Shown here one piece after another: positions 852 through 4,527 of a DNA stretch of 9,610 bases. Under the pieces are notes generated by a model. The model was not told the DNA's origin. It was given only the letters and a program-made list of their open reading frames with translations, and searched no databases. The stretch covers positions 1 through 9,610 of the forward strand of contig JAOHKR010000023.1 of assembly GCA_028101445.1 (NCBI GenBank), given 5' to 3'. This DNA comes from Candidatus Pelagibacter sp. (lineage in GTDB: Bacteria > Pseudomonadota > Alphaproteobacteria > Pelagibacterales > Pelagibacteraceae). The position numbers and the translations under genes were made by a program. The stretch's first letter is position 1; the number at the start of each line of letters is the position of its first letter.

Positions 852-928
852 GGCGAGGTAGCTCAGTTGGTTAGAGCACAGGACTCATAAGCCTGGGGTC
901 GGCGGTTCGAATCCGCCCCTCGCTACCA
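852..928 (+). tRNA. tRNA with CAT anticodon, most likely elongator tRNA-Met
   Basis: A 77-nt cloverleaf can be folded by eye. The acceptor stem pairs 852-858 with 918-924 (G-U at the first pair). The D stem is GCTC/GAGC at 861-864/874-877, the anticodon stem 879-883/891-895, and the T stem GGCGG/CCGCC at 901-905/913-917 with a TTCGAAT loop. Discriminator A925 is followed by an encoded CCA at 926-928. The anticodon CAT is at 886-888. An initiator tRNA is unlikely: pair 1-72 is G-U rather than the initiator mismatch, and the anticodon stem lacks three consecutive G-C pairs at the loop. A lysidine-type tRNA-Ile2 cannot be fully excluded. Base pair 31-39 is an A-G mismatch (883/891). The 3' portion from 876 is the attachment core that is repeated twice downstream. 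Confidence 0.93.
876..928 (+). repeat. attachment core copy 1 (inside the intact tRNA, attL-like)
   Basis: This is the part of the tRNA from the end of the D stem to CCA. It recurs identically at 1377-1429 (identity runs three bases past CCA) and, from 881 onward with one difference, at 4473-4520. Identity begins in or just before the anticodon stem, as expected for tyrosine-integrase crossover at a tRNA anticodon loop, with the element restoring the 3' half of the tRNA. Confidence 0.85.
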
Positions 929-951
929 AAATATGACGTTGATGCAATTTT

Positions 952-970
952 GGTCACACATTGGTCACAC
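952..970 (+). promoter_or_regulatory. left arm-type site pair of element A
   Basis: Two direct copies of GGTCACAC start at 952 and 963, 11 bp apart (about one helical turn), 23 bp after the tRNA CCA. The same pair with the same spacing recurs at the other three element ends, in the same orientation. This is the expected layout for integrase arm-binding sites, although the binding protein is not in the window. Confidence 0.55.
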
Positions 971-989
971 ACAGTTTTAATCTTGCATA

Positions 990-1025
990 CAAACCCAGAA
1001 CTAAGATCCCTAAAAGTTTATTCAT
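990..1025 (-). repeat. signal-peptide-coding repeat, copy R1
   Basis: Read on the minus strand from ATG at 1025-1023, it encodes M-N-K-L-L-G-I-L-V-L-G-L, the start of an exported-protein signal peptide. The frame then runs out of the repeat and stops at 956-954, for about 23 codons in all. The repeat matches R2-R4 at DNA level, not only in protein. Its ATG overlaps the TGA stop of the 64-aa gene (ATGA). It looks like the truncated 5' end of a secreted-protein gene. Confidence 0.7.
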
Positions 1026-1216
1026 ATTAAATATTGTTTATAAATTTCTTCACGTTGAGTTTTTTCCATACCTTTAGTTTTTTCTACAAACTCATTTCTT
1101 AAATCCCTAGTTTTGAAAATATAAAAACAAACAGTATCTTCGCTATGATAAATAGCCTTTAATTCATCATCAATATCATTTAATTCTTTTGGAATATCAG
1201 CTTTAATGCAAATCAT
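1022..1216 (-). CDS. small protein of unknown function, element A cargo
   Basis: This 64-aa product begins MICIKADIPKELND and is hydrophilic and charged, rich in Glu, Lys and Asp. It has no signal peptide, membrane segment or metal-binding cluster, and I do not recognise a family. It is the only intact gene in element A and reads toward the tRNA. Copies of the signal-peptide repeat lie on both sides in the same orientation: R2 just upstream of its ATG, and R1 starting inside its stop codon (ATGA). No clear Shine-Dalgarno precedes the start. It could be a regulator, an antitoxin-like protein or a degenerate cargo gene; nothing in the sequence decides between these. Confidence 0.55.
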   Translation of the reverse strand: MICIKADIPKELNDIDDELKAIYHSEDTVCFYIFKTRDLRNEFVEKTKGMEKTQREEIYKQYLI

Positions 1217-1227
1217 AATAGTTTATT

Positions 1228-1263
1228 TAAACCCAGAACCACGATCCCTAAAAGTTTTTTAAT
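1228..1263 (-). repeat. signal-peptide-coding repeat, copy R2
   Basis: On the minus strand this reads K-K-L-L-G-I-V-V-L-G from 1260 down to 1231. The DNA core, from AAACTTTTAG to TTCTGGGTT, is identical to R3. The position equivalent to the start codon is ATT (1263-1261), so the copy has lost its ATG and is unlikely to be translated as such. The frame stops after a few codons, just before the start of the 64-aa gene. Confidence 0.7.
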
Positions 1264-1280
1264 AATAAATCATACATTAT

Positions 1281-1376
1281 TTTGGTCACAAATTGGACTC
1301 ACTCAGAAGCAAAATATGGTTTCAGGTTGCAAAAAAAGTATTGTATAACGTTGAGAAGTGAAGGGCAGAGGTTGCC
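1281..1376 (+). repeat. right-end flank of element A, homologous to that of element B
   Basis: The stretch before the second tRNA fragment aligns without gaps to 4372-4467 at a constant offset of 3091 bp. By eye about three quarters of positions match, including AGAAGCAAAATAT, TTCAGGTTG, TTGTATAAC and AAGTGAAGGG. In a tRNA-integrated element this position belongs to the element, not the chromosome, so the homology says A and B are relatives. Confidence 0.75.
1284..1306 (+). promoter_or_regulatory. right arm-type site pair of element A
   Basis: GGTCACA starts at 1284 and the diverged copy GGACTCAC at 1295, again 11 bp apart. The pair sits about 90 bp before the tRNA fragment, at the same distance as the pair at 4375 in element B. 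Confidence 0.5.
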
Positions 1377-1429
1377 GCACAGGACTCATAAGCCTGGGGT
1401 CGGCGGTTCGAATCCGCCCCTCGCTACCA
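1377..1429 (+). repeat. attachment core copy 2 (tRNA 3' fragment between elements A and B)
   Basis: This is a 53-nt exact copy of tRNA positions 876-928, including anticodon loop, T arm and CCA. The D arm and 5' acceptor strand are absent, so it cannot make a tRNA. It serves as the right junction of element A and the left junction of element B. Confidence 0.9.
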
Positions 1430-1607
1430 AACAAATCAACGTTTGTTAGTTTAAATACAACTTGATTTTTAGACTTGGTCACACTCTGGTCACACTCAGA
1501 TAAAATTCAACGTAACACCTCGACCCTCGTTACTTAGATTTCTTACCTAGGAAATTTAGATCAATTATAGCACTGTGTTCGTATTGTAACGACTAGTTAG
1601 TCCGGAT
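1430..1607 (+). other. left-end non-coding stretch of element B
   Basis: No protein-like frame is seen on either strand. It holds the arm-type pair at 1477-1495, a short inverted repeat GACTA-GT-TAGTC at 1591-1602 just before the nuclease start (operator-like, but short enough to be chance), and TATAAT on the minus strand at 1569-1564 with no good -35 box and no gene behind it. A plus-strand promoter for the nuclease is presumably here but is not clearly recognisable. Confidence 0.4.
1477..1495 (+). promoter_or_regulatory. left arm-type site pair of element B
   Basis: GGTCACAC starts at 1477 and again at 1488, 11 bp apart, 47 bp after the CCA of the second tRNA fragment. Element A has the same pair after its own CCA. 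Sequence between the pair and the CCA is otherwise different, so the boxes stand out as conserved. Confidence 0.55.
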
Positions 1608-2639
1608 ATGATGGGTCCAATGATAAGAGATACTTTAATAAAGATTCTAACCGAGTTTGAAATTGCGAGAAAAAAAGACAAATTTAAAGATCACCCACTT
1701 GCAAACTTTATTAGAAATGAAGCTAAGGAAAATTTTAAATCAGCTTTAGGAAAAGAAGCAAAAAATTATATTATTGATGCTAGCCCTGGAAAAGGAAATT
1801 GGGTTAACAATCCATGGATTAATATAATGGATGAACGGGTTACTACTACTGCAGAGGATGGATATTATCCTGTTTATCTTTTCTCTGAAGATCAAAAAAC
1901 AATTGTTTTGGAATTAGGACAAGGAGAATATCAAGCTAGAAAAACCTTTAAAAAAGATACAGAAAATATTTTGATATCTAGGGCTGCAATTATGAGGTCT
2001 AAGGTCCCTAGTCACACAAATAGATTTAAATCAAACATATCAATAAATTTAAAAAAAGGAGACAAAGTTAAGGAAAGATGGATTTCATCAGCAGCTTTTG
2101 GAAAAGTTTATAAAATTAATAAGATCCCAGAAGAAAACGAGCTCGTTGATGATTTAAAAGAAATTTTAAAATTGTATCAAATTATAATTTCAAAGGGAGG
2201 AGTTGTTGAAGGTGAATTTAAAAAAATCTATGTTGACCAAGATGAAGACGCTATCGGTGAAGAAACTAAAATTATAAAACATATTGATAAGGAAATTGAA
2301 ATTATAAAGACAGATCGAAATTTTATATTAGAATTAAAAAAAAATAGTGATTATACCTGTGAAGCTTGTGGTTTAAAGTATGAGAAAATATATGGAGATT
2401 ATAGCAAGAAAAAAGATTTTATAGAGGCTCACCATATTGAACCAAAGTTTAAGGTTAAAGAGGGTGCTGAAACTAACAAGAAAATGTCTAGATCAGCCAA
2501 AGACTTTGCGATGTTGTGCGCTAACTGTCATAGAATGATACATAGAATGATGAAGAAAGAAAAAGACAGAGTTATATCCTTGAATGAATTTAAAGAAAGA
2601 ATAAACTTAAAATTCAAAGAGAAATTAAAAGAAATATGA
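1608..2639 (+). CDS. MrcB_N (DUF3578)-HNH endonuclease, probable modification-dependent defence nuclease
   Basis: A 343-aa two-domain protein. Residues about 10-195 resemble the MrcB-like N-terminal domain (DUF3578): a GKGNW block at 61-65 with a following W70, then D75-E-R and the YYPVYLFSED strand at 86-95 followed by LELGQG. This domain is associated with McrB-type and other modification-dependent restriction proteins. Residues about 245-315 form an HNH nuclease with a zinc-knuckle arrangement: C251-x2-C254, catalytic EAHHIEP (H275, H276), and C304-x2-CH (C307, H308) plus H312. All key residues are present, so it should be active, plausibly cleaving modified or foreign DNA. The start may be 1608, 1611 or 1620; no clear Shine-Dalgarno decides. 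The TGA overlaps the ATG of repeat R3. No partner methylase or AAA+ subunit is nearby. Confidence 0.85.
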   Translation: MMGPMIRDTLIKILTEFEIARKKDKFKDHPLANFIRNEAKENFKSALGKEAKNYIIDASPGKGNWVNNPWINIMDERVTTTAEDGYYPVYLFSEDQKTIVLELGQGEYQARKTFKKDTENILISRAAIMRSKVPSHTNRFKSNISINLKKGDKVKERWISSAAFGKVYKINKIPEENELVDDLKEILKLYQIIISKGGVVEGEFKKIYVDQDEDAIGEETKIIKHIDKEIEIIKTDRNFILELKKNSDYTCEACGLKYEKIYGDYSKKKDFIEAHHIEPKFKVKEGAETNKKMSRSAKDFAMLCANCHRMIHRMMKKEKDRVISLNEFKERINLKFKEKLKEI

Positions 2640-2671
2640 GAAAACTTTTAGGGATCGTGGTTCTGGGTTAA
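2636..2671 (+). repeat. signal-peptide-coding repeat, copy R3 (11-codon relic)
   Basis: ATG at 2636 overlaps the nuclease stop (ATGA) and opens an 11-codon frame, M-R-K-L-L-G-I-V-V-L-G, then TAA at 2669-2671. The DNA core is identical to R2. It looks like a signal-peptide start cut off just after the repeat, so it is a relic or seam rather than a gene. Confidence 0.7.
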
Positions 2672-2702
2672 TGCAAAATAAAAAAAATTGATAGTAGTTT
2701 AT

Positions 2703-2706
2703 GGAG
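2703..2706 (+). promoter_or_regulatory. Shine-Dalgarno GGAG of the small membrane protein gene
   Basis: GGAG lies 8 nt before the ATG at 2715. Recognisable ribosome-binding sites are rare in this window, so this supports both the gene and its start. Confidence 0.6.
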
Positions 2707-2714
2707 ATAATTAA

Positions 2715-2936
2715 ATGAACAATAAATTTTTTGAATGGATGGGTGTTGCGACAGCAATTTTGTACTCTTTATTTGTTGCATTTAACATTGGTCTAGAATT
2801 TGTTGGTTTTTCATTATTATTATTATCAGCAGTTTTAATAGGTATCTGGGCTTATCGAGGAAAACACAAAGGAATATTATTATTACAATTCTTTTATGCT
2901 AGTGCTGGTATCATTGGAATGATTAGATGGTTTTGA
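2715..2936 (+). CDS. small integral membrane protein
   Basis: This 73-aa protein is almost entirely hydrophobic and predicts three membrane helices at about residues 8-24, 27-46 and 52-70, with a short basic loop (RGKHKG, about 48-53). A GIIGMIRW motif ends the protein. The layout resembles very small PnuC-like or SWEET-half-type marine membrane proteins, but I cannot assign a family. It has a good GGAG ribosome-binding site and sits between R3 and the exported hydrolase, whose likely ATG begins 3 nt after its stop, so the two are probably translated from one mRNA. No signal peptide separate from the first helix is seen. It could be a transporter subunit or an accessory membrane protein; the function is unknown. 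Confidence 0.7.
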   Translation: MNNKFFEWMGVATAILYSLFVAFNIGLEFVGFSLLLLSAVLIGIWAYRGKHKGILLLQFFYASAGIIGMIRWF

Positions 2937-2938
2937 AG

Positions 2939-2974
2939 ATGAAAAAACTTTTAGCGATCATAGTTCTGGGTTTG
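2939..2974 (+). repeat. signal-peptide-coding repeat, copy R4 (in use)
   Basis: This copy encodes M-K-K-L-L-A-I-I-V-L-G-L, the functional start of the exported serine hydrolase. It differs from R2/R3 at three core positions, while codons such as CTT-TTA and GTT-CTG-GGT are kept. It is the only one of the four copies joined to a full-length secreted protein. Confidence 0.75.
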
Positions 2975-4123
2975 TTGTGGAGTACCACCTTAATTGCAAC
3001 ACCACCAAAAAATAAATGGTCTCCTTCATTAGAAAAATGGAAGAAGGATTTCCCAAAAGCAGAATATCCTCCTAATGATTGCAAGTTTTGTACAGAAAGA
3101 CACGATTACTGGGCTCATGGTTGGTATCGAAAAGCAAGTTTAAAAAATAGAGATTACAAAAATAATGGGGGGCTGAAAAGAATTGTAATACAACCTGCAA
3201 AAAAAACAATCAGACCAATTAAAAAAAATATTAAACCTCTTCCAAAAGAAATTTATGATTATGTGTATTACAGAGATATCTCTAGTTTAATGGTATTTGA
3301 TAAAGGAGTGTTAATTCACGATTGGAAAAGAGATTATATTTTCAATGACAAGCCTATTAACGGAGAGTCAAGAAGTAAGTCAATAGTTGGTGTTGCTGCT
3401 TTAAAAATGGCTTGCCAAAATATTTTAGATTTAGACAAAACTCATGGAGATTATTCTCCAGAAATTAAAGACTCATTTTATGGCCATATAAAATTAAAAG
3501 ACTCTTTAAATATGTTGGGTAGAGATCAATTTGTAATAAATTATAATATTTTAAAGGAAACGCACAGAAAGAAATCTGACTTAACAACTATTCTTAATAA
3601 GCACCCTAAAAAATTAGAAACAGAAGGACCGAAAGAATTCAAATACTCAAATCCTAATACTGATTTAATAACATTAGATATGATCAATGTATTAGGAGGA
3701 AAAAAGAAGTTTGCTAAATGGTTTCAAAAAAATATTTCAGAAGCTGCAGGTTTCGAGTCAAAAGGTAAGATTTTGCTGGATAAAAATGGAACTCCAATTT
3801 CATCGTCATCTATCATGCTTACTAGGGATGATTGGCTAAGGTTTGGAATGTACGTTATTGAATTAATGAAGGATAAAAACTCTTGTGAGGGAAAAAAGTT
3901 ACAAGAGGCTTTTGAGAATGCTACTCCCACTAAGAAAAAATTTGCTCCCCAATATGCAATGTTCTTTTGGTTAAATGGGTATGGTGTAGAAAATTTAGTT
4001 CAAATGAGAGGACACGGTTTAAGACTATCTTTAATTGATTGGAAAAATGACAAAATAATTCAGACGAATGGTTTTGCTATTAGTTGGAAACCTCAAGAGT
4101 TAGTAAATCTTATTTGGAAATAA
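2939..4123 (+). CDS. exported serine hydrolase, beta-lactamase (S12/PF00144) fold
   Basis: A 394-aa protein with a classic signal peptide (MKKLLAIIVLGLL followed by WSTTLIA, likely cleaved near residue 20), so it is periplasmic or outer-surface. Three active-site elements of the serine beta-lactamase/esterase family are visible: S144-R-S-K147 (SxxK), Y236-S-N238 (YxN), and R-G-H359-G360 in the place of the KTG/HxG box. A C48-x2-C51 pair follows the signal sequence. Members act as DD-peptidases, esterases or amide hydrolases; the substrate here is unknown. A longer frame opens at ATG 2927, but the ATG at 2939 is preferred because it begins the signal peptide and matches the start of repeats R1 and R3, and 2927 would overlap the previous gene. 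It is the last plus-strand gene of element B. Confidence 0.8.
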   Translation: MKKLLAIIVLGLLWSTTLIATPPKNKWSPSLEKWKKDFPKAEYPPNDCKFCTERHDYWAHGWYRKASLKNRDYKNNGGLKRIVIQPAKKTIRPIKKNIKPLPKEIYDYVYYRDISSLMVFDKGVLIHDWKRDYIFNDKPINGESRSKSIVGVAALKMACQNILDLDKTHGDYSPEIKDSFYGHIKLKDSLNMLGRDQFVINYNILKETHRKKSDLTTILNKHPKKLETEGPKEFKYSNPNTDLITLDMINVLGGKKKFAKWFQKNISEAAGFESKGKILLDKNGTPISSSSIMLTRDDWLRFGMYVIELMKDKNSCEGKKLQEAFENATPTKKKFAPQYAMFFWLNGYGVENLVQMRGHGLRLSLIDWKNDKIIQTNGFAISWKPQELVNLIWK

Positions 4124-4371: not shown

Positions 4372-4472
4372 TCTTGTCACAAATCGGTCACATCGAGAAG
4401 CAAAATATTGATTCAGGTTGTATAAAAAGTGTTGTATAACAATTGTAAGTGAAGGGTAGAGGTTACTAGTTC
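4372..4472 (+). repeat. right-end flank of element B, homologous to that of element A
   Basis: This aligns without gaps with 1281-1381; identity is about three quarters by eye and then becomes near-perfect in the tRNA fragment. The last eight bases before 4473 are unrelated to the element A copy, which places the left limit of the shared core at the anticodon stem. Confidence 0.75.
4375..4392 (+). promoter_or_regulatory. right arm-type site pair of element B
   Basis: TGTCACA starts at 4375 and GGTCACA at 4386, 11 bp apart, about 90 bp before the tRNA fragment, as in element A. The pair lies upstream of the Shine-Dalgarno of the minus-strand small frame, so a protein bound here could also control that gene. 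Confidence 0.5.
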
Positions 4473-4520
4473 GGACTCATAAGCCTGGGGTCGGCGGTTC
4501 GAATCCGCCTCTCGCTACCA
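4473..4520 (+). repeat. attachment core copy 3 (attR-like tRNA 3' fragment)
   Basis: This is a 48-nt copy of tRNA positions 881-928 with one change (T at 4510 against C at 918, first base of the 3' acceptor strand). It ends in CCA and forms the outer right boundary of the tandem elements. The change would turn a G-C pair into G-U and marks this as an older or foreign copy. Confidence 0.88.
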
Positions 4521-4527
4521 AAAATCT

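Follow-up and report, generated by a model that had tools for sequence, protein, structure and literature searches.

A short repeat encoding the start of a signal peptide is probably a joint for gene-cassette exchange in SAR11 islands

SAR11 bacteria are very abundant in the ocean and have small genomes with fast-changing islands. Our analysis of 9,610 nucleotides from Candidatus Pelagibacter sp. (positions 1 to 9,610 of contig JAOHKR010000023.1, assembly GCA_028101445.1; the window refers below to this whole stretch) indicates that a repeat of about 34 bp, (ATG)AAAAARCTTTTAGSGATCDTGGTTCTGGGTT, is probably a joint, itself coding, where SAR11 islands exchange their gene cassettes. The core of this repeat, AAACTTTTAGGGATCGTGGTTCTGGGTT, measures 28 bp and is found four times in the window at up to three mismatches, against a mean of 0.00 matches in 200 dinucleotide shuffles of the same sequence. 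The four copies are the following:

992..1019, minus strand: core copy R1, two mismatches; ATG at 1025-1023 and a stop after about 23 codons; located between a cassette and a direct repeat
1230..1257, minus strand: core copy R2, no mismatch; no start codon (none in frame within 30 nt)
2642..2669, plus strand: core copy R3, no mismatch; orphan copy of 11 codons whose ATG overlaps the stop of the preceding gene
2945..2972, plus strand: core copy R4, three mismatches; start of a secreted protein

The initial annotation of the window had already recognised four copies sharing a core of nearly 30 bp, which we could match at 28 bp with none expected by shuffling, and the identity that it reported between R2 and R3 extends across all 28 bp. 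Its statement that a full secreted protein starts from R4 only also holds, with 394 amino acids read from the own ATG of this copy, R1 to R3 being truncated or devoid of a start (the R3 frame consists of ATG-AGA and nine further codons before TAA). The copies are distributed as proposed over both of two tandem elements, with two in each. Beyond these points, the core is a junction at which upstream and downstream modules recombine, and its copies are organised in same-orientation arrays.

The core has spread well beyond the window locus. A search of related genomes, suggested by the initial annotation, revealed it at up to two mismatches in 150 of the 397 genomes of one SAR11 family, while the pattern read backwards, used as a control, was absent from these 397 genomes and from a set of 12 genomes. 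The latter, which were picked via core-holding loci, all carry the core in 1-16 copies each, often clustered. The presence of the core in 150 family genomes excludes the alternative, also raised at the outset, that one local duplication explains the copies of the window. With a slightly degenerate core pattern, at least 119 stretches were matched among genome contigs and one in a viral collection; the 80 listed out of these at least 119 core-bearing stretches are all Pelagibacter-type or alphaproteobacterial. The DNA pattern used to fetch loci L001-L120 was degenerate at core positions 3, 11, 16 and 18, and conservation and variation inside their cores are conditional on it. The other alternative raised at the outset, a core no commoner than further signal-peptide coding sequences, was addressed in part, by a count of repeated 20-mers confined to regions chosen for the presence of the core.

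Evidence for a joint comes from the sequences on its two sides. Among 279 distinct copies at up to five mismatches, 167 have a start codon that opens a frame of 60 or more codons, and 112 are orphan. The flanks could be compared for the 267 copies in which 150 nt or more are available on each side: similarity is found upstream in 152 pairs and downstream in 169, but on both sides in only three, these pair counts being those of non-independent events. Of these, 145 of the 152 upstream-similar pairs have no downstream similarity and 166 of the 169 downstream-similar pairs no upstream similarity. The flanks form 36 upstream and 32 downstream clusters, and nearly all members have different partners. 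In pairs with the same upstream flank, identity amounts to ~0.6-0.8 up to position -6, the sequence is conserved from -5 to about +28, and the random level is reached by about +35. Pairs with the same downstream flank display the mirror image of this profile, and the switch thus spans about 34 bp (-6 to about +30). The conservation of the core in these profiles is partly due to fetching with the core, which leaves the behaviour of the flanks unaffected. In contrast, at ordinary gene starts located 450-6000 bp from a core, 658 of 886 upstream-similar pairs and 658 of 917 downstream-similar pairs are similar on both sides (72-74%). Some core flanks are even 99-100% identical over ~390-400 bp on one side with no similarity detected on the other, so that the exchange is recent. 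At a locus upstream of an RNA-helicase gene, three core-bearing loci of 11 are alike between the core and the gene but not further upstream; no empty site was found among these 11 loci, the core-free ones being too diverged to display a pre-insertion site.

The segments between cores behave as mobile units. Core-to-core cassettes (n = 114) have a median length of 844 bp, and in 17 pairs of homologous cassettes both neighbours differ in 16, the right neighbour is shared in one and both neighbours are shared in none. A cassette of 803 bp is ~98% identical at loci of four genomes, and the 202-bp cassette of the window has copies with 94% and 98.5% identity in two other SAR11 genomes, where the neighbours are different. 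In one of these two genomes (locus L255), this cassette is followed by a joint with a gene and then by yet another joint, which lies 174 bp ahead of a tRNA-Pro gene. This recurrence from core to core, together with the switch of flank similarity at the core, bears out the location of the copies at cargo boundaries claimed initially. Neighbouring copies within 5 kb have the same orientation in 102 of 105 cases, R2 and R3 of the window, which lie astride the element boundary, being one of the three exceptions. What follows the core is highly diverse: 145 core-started proteins fall into 78 families of mature parts, of which 56 have a single member and the largest 31. A Pfam search with 78 representatives gave 29 families, none matched by more than three members; they include polysaccharide lyase, glucose/sorbosone dehydrogenase, LolA-like, autotransporter and nuclease.

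The core is conserved as DNA, in line with the initial claim of conservation at this level. Because the fetching pattern itself contains the core, codons were examined in copies obtained by a protein search in eight genomes chosen for many copies. This search gave 92 matches, of which 88 were used (four were dropped since their alignment did not start at query residue 1), and the 79 copies with up to three residue differences formed the codon comparison set. Usage in open reading frames (ORFs) of at least 250 amino acids in the fetched regions (111,439 codons), rather than in whole genomes, served as the reference. Four codons that are rare elsewhere (3-9% usage) are fixed at 88-100% in core copies: GGG in 65/73 (6.4% in long ORFs), ATC in 75/79 (8.7%), GTG in 37/37 copies having valine (9.0%) and CTG in 67/76 (2.7%). 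In addition, CTT is used in 70/70 copies versus 19% in long ORFs. Codon differences among the 79 copies comprise 60 synonymous changes, 31 of them at lysine 3, versus 74 non-synonymous ones. Residue 8, which corresponds to core position 16, is not valine in 42 of the 79 copies and is more variable than any silent position, lysine 3 being the next most variable (31/79). Moreover, the lack of a long ORF is not accompanied by greater decay of the core within the reach of the search, which badly decayed orphans would escape: the mean number of mismatches at 30 positions is 0.78 in 36 short-frame copies versus 2.10 in 52 coding copies, or 0.78 versus 1.26 when mismatches are limited to six at most, a difference that is not significant (p 0.087). 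Examined by eye, the N-terminal extensions of four relatives of the 64-amino-acid ORF of the window (P0002, P0003, P0004 and P0008) resemble the core translated in more than one reading frame. Finally, copies from one genome agree more often at core position 16 than copies from different genomes (0.65 vs 0.42; 0/1000 shuffles).

How the joint would work can be proposed from these data. Given an ATG and a cassette in frame, its translation, MKKLLGIVVLG, would make up the first 11 residues of a signal peptide. As the joint doubles as a signal-peptide start, an arriving in-frame gene would become a secreted protein with the export tag already attached, and the products started by the core are predicted to be exported on the basis of their sequence. 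The copy would stand alone at the end of an array, and also wherever the cassette behind it is out of frame or brings its own start. Crossovers would take place inside the joint, most likely through RecA-type homologous recombination between short identical stretches, while repeated copying and homogenisation within genomes would keep the DNA sequence fixed. Homologous recombination has been proposed for the replacement of flexible islands in aquatic prokaryotes (Lopez-Perez et al. 2014).

Other explanations were weighed against this proposal. If the secreted proteins were related or shared a good signal peptide, protein constraint and gene duplication in merely dynamic islands could produce part of the picture, in agreement with the 167 copies that open a frame of at least 60 codons and with the frequent change of neighbours at other secreted-protein starts of the islands. 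However, such constraint fits poorly with four rare codons fixed at 88-100% while the residue-changing position 16 varies most, with the maintenance of the core in orphan and out-of-frame copies, with the 78 mature families, and with flanks that switch at the core edges, and we consider this explanation very unlikely. Little more credit can be given to a regulatory role (small RNA target, translation enhancer or protein-binding site), which would fix the DNA and turn the repeat into a recombination hot spot through its abundance. Conservation is indeed strongest in the first 11 codons, and several upstream modules display by eye a promoter-like -10 element a few nucleotides before the ATG. Nevertheless, the core folds as RNA no better than shuffled sequences and forms no stable structure (z -0.17 and 0.54; RNA parameters), and the orphans at array ends would have no ORF of their own to regulate.

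The main rival is a site-specific cassette system, in which a tyrosine recombinase (island integrase or host Xer) would recognise the core and the signal peptide would be a by-product. The array architecture, the uniform orientation, the mobility of cassettes and the conservation at silent positions are all compatible with such a system, and the best hint of a dedicated enzyme is the order of features on a contig of the viral collection (L120), where an orphan core is followed by a paired direct repeat and, ~280 bp further on, by a divergent tyrosine integrase of 557 amino acids (positions 600-2273; PHROG integrase match at 4e-14, no Pfam match at E 0.001). One genome (G136) also encodes a PF00589 protein of 325 amino acids ~4 kb beyond the last core of the contig, though its size is that found in most of these genomes. 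However, a relative of the L120 integrase occurs in only 4 of 394 family genomes, and tyrosine recombinases do not mark copy-rich genomes, PF00589 being matched 9 times in ten copy-rich versus 10 times in ten core-free genomes (0-2 matches per genome, in genomes that may be incomplete). A fixed crossover point is not supported: differences between close pairs (36 upstream, 39 downstream) are found all along the core in both classes, without left/right polarity of the core variants, and therefore no single exchange point is visible. The core has no inverted-repeat arms by eye. The lack of both a dedicated recombinase marker and a fixed exchange point favours homologous recombination, by which cassettes are probably exchanged, and makes a site-specific system rather improbable. 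We are equally doubtful about a dedicated SAR11 cassette-exchange system whose site would be the signal-peptide frame and whose cognate recombinase would bind the paired repeats at array ends.

Several points weigh against homologous cassette exchange at the joint as we propose it. No recombination event was directly observed, and with 28-34 bp the joint is hardly longer than the minimum needed for RecA exchange. Strongly changed copies may have escaped the searches. Furthermore, controls at secreted-protein starts, all defined by a crude signal-peptide motif, revealed similarity on both sides in 41 of 50 upstream-similar pairs and in 41 of 160 downstream-similar pairs, 88 of the latter 160 having no upstream similarity. 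In an earlier and looser control restricted to such starts within 3 kb of a core, 28/40 and 14/19 pairs were one-sided and only 5/40 and 5/19 both-sided, and therefore island genes shuffle at other starts too. The islands thus turn over at points other than the core, and secreted-protein starts change neighbours as well, though less. Homogenisation within genomes was significant at only one of three core positions (positions 3 and 11: 220 and 88 of 1000 shuffles), and it would itself blur any exchange point.

Other recurrent starts were noticed in these islands. At one locus (L152, 7797-8300 and 1637-2128), two pilin-like genes have near-identical N-termini and one of them starts immediately after a degenerate core, which raises the possibility that pilin starts act as a second shared joint. 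Another signal-peptide start, MKKLFLY...FL, recurs in the same islands (L151 9489-9959, L153 9161-9904, G018:C1, G032:C2) and is identical over 33 nt in two genomes.

In the window, the four copies belong to two tandem elements bounded by a tRNA-Met gene and two partial repeats of its 3' part, an arrangement of intact and partial tRNA typical of genomic islands that was established for the window only. Besides the cores, the features are:

852..928, plus strand: intact tRNA-Met (CAT), left end of the tandem elements (ARAGORN, Rfam)
950..971, plus strand: paired 11-bp direct repeat TTGGTCACACA, left end of element 1 (repeat family D4, sequence)
1022..1216, minus strand: ORF of 64 amino acids, which forms with a short leader the 202-bp core-to-core cassette
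1282..1302, plus strand: paired direct repeat (degenerate), right end of element 1 (repeat family D4)
1370..1431, plus strand: partial tRNA-Met repeat, boundary between elements 1 and 2 (repeat family D2)
1475..1496, plus strand: paired direct repeat, left end of element 2 (repeat family D4)
1608..2639, plus strand: protein of 343 amino acids with an MrcB_N domain and an HNH match just under the cut-off (Pfam)
2715..2936, plus strand: hydrophobic ORF of 73 amino acids, no family assigned
2939..4123, plus strand: protein of 394 amino acids with a signal peptide, similar to CubicO / class C beta-lactamases according to the names and Pfam matches of some relatives
4374..4393, plus strand: degenerate paired direct repeat, right end of element 2 (by eye)
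4461..4522, plus strand: partial tRNA-Met repeat, right end of element 2 (repeat family D2)

Element 1 is only ~500 bp long and contains one cassette, that of the 64-amino-acid ORF, between R2 and R1; among 120 matches listed for this ORF, all relatives with an organism name are from Candidatus Pelagibacter. Element 2 contains the MrcB_N/HNH protein, R3, the 73-amino-acid ORF, and R4 with its CubicO-like protein. Among the ORFs that flank the elements are methyltransferases (Pfam) and, by eye, dTDP-sugar genes. Because a Pfam scan detected no integrase family among the four cargo ORFs, both elements look non-autonomous. Their tRNA fragments and paired direct repeats suggest that these islands would enter the chromosome separately, via an integrase acting at tRNA genes. 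Phage records were searched with window positions 860-1440; in the 20 listed out of 41 matches, 12-21% of the query is covered, for the most part within the tRNA.

The ends of arrays have features of their own. A tRNA gene is found within 400 nt downstream of 15/112 orphan copies versus 3/167 coding copies and 3.3% of random positions, seven of these 15 orphans representing one tRNA-Leu site type and two being R1 and R2 of the window. By eye, a paired direct repeat with ~11-bp spacing often lies between the joint and the array-end feature; its sequence varies between genomes while its two halves match, and GATAAA often follows. Such paired repeats were seen at array ends and at some first promoters (L153 14500-14550, L255 6230-6290, and the window copies), and they might serve as arm sites of an integrase or as operators for regulators that diversify. 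An ORF of 75 amino acids (NKENASKLWK...) with its own paired repeats is a recurrent array-end cassette (L153 14560-14784, L151 5775-6002, and others) and has a weak match to phage anti-repressors (phrog_463, E 0.074). On the L120 contig, the integrase gene is followed by an Mrr/ResIII-type restriction-helicase gene.

Several known systems share part of this organisation. Tycheposons, which are bounded by tRNA repeats, and tRNA-integrated islands of marine bacteria resemble the window as tRNA-repeat-bounded elements of a streamlined marine bacterium. Unlike tycheposons, the window elements have no integrase among their cargo ORFs, and the cassette joint constitutes a second, internal exchange layer. 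The header of Crinkler effector genes is a translocation domain, and the pdif site is ~28 bp in size; the core presumably bears no resemblance to the dif consensus, and a search for dif-like sites in six SAR11 genomes gave no match with which it could be compared. The Xer-dependent pdif modules of Acinetobacter plasmids comprise few genes and have a short repeated site at their ends, and the Crinkler genes of oomycetes combine a conserved secretion header with fragment recombination behind it, both as here; Crinklers, however, form a eukaryotic gene family and not a bacterial cassette array. With integrons, the core arrays share the same orientation of mostly small cassettes, the repeated joint, and the recurrence of cassettes with different neighbours. 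Unlike integrons, the joint codes and can start a protein, it folds no better than shuffles, it displays no fixed exchange point of the attC type, and no integrase could be tied to the arrays in these possibly incomplete genomes, the exceptions being the array end of L120 and the contig of G136. An earlier study reported the hypervariable regions of SAR11 to be devoid of recognisable attC sites (Wilhelm et al. 2007, PMC2217521). Our literature search, outside which most subscription papers and all preprints fell, gave no description of the core repeat and no paper with the peptide string MKKLLGIVVLG, and the main text of a report on SAR11 ecogenomics (PMC7318151) contains none of the terms 'signal peptide', 'repeat', 'cassette' or 'integrase'.

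To conclude, a defined joint of 34 bp would provide a testable grammar for SAR11 islands, since it predicts the sites of gene gain and loss, and would allow cassettes to be catalogued in SAR11 genomes and metagenomes. It also suggests that unrelated genes may be converted into secreted proteins in one step.

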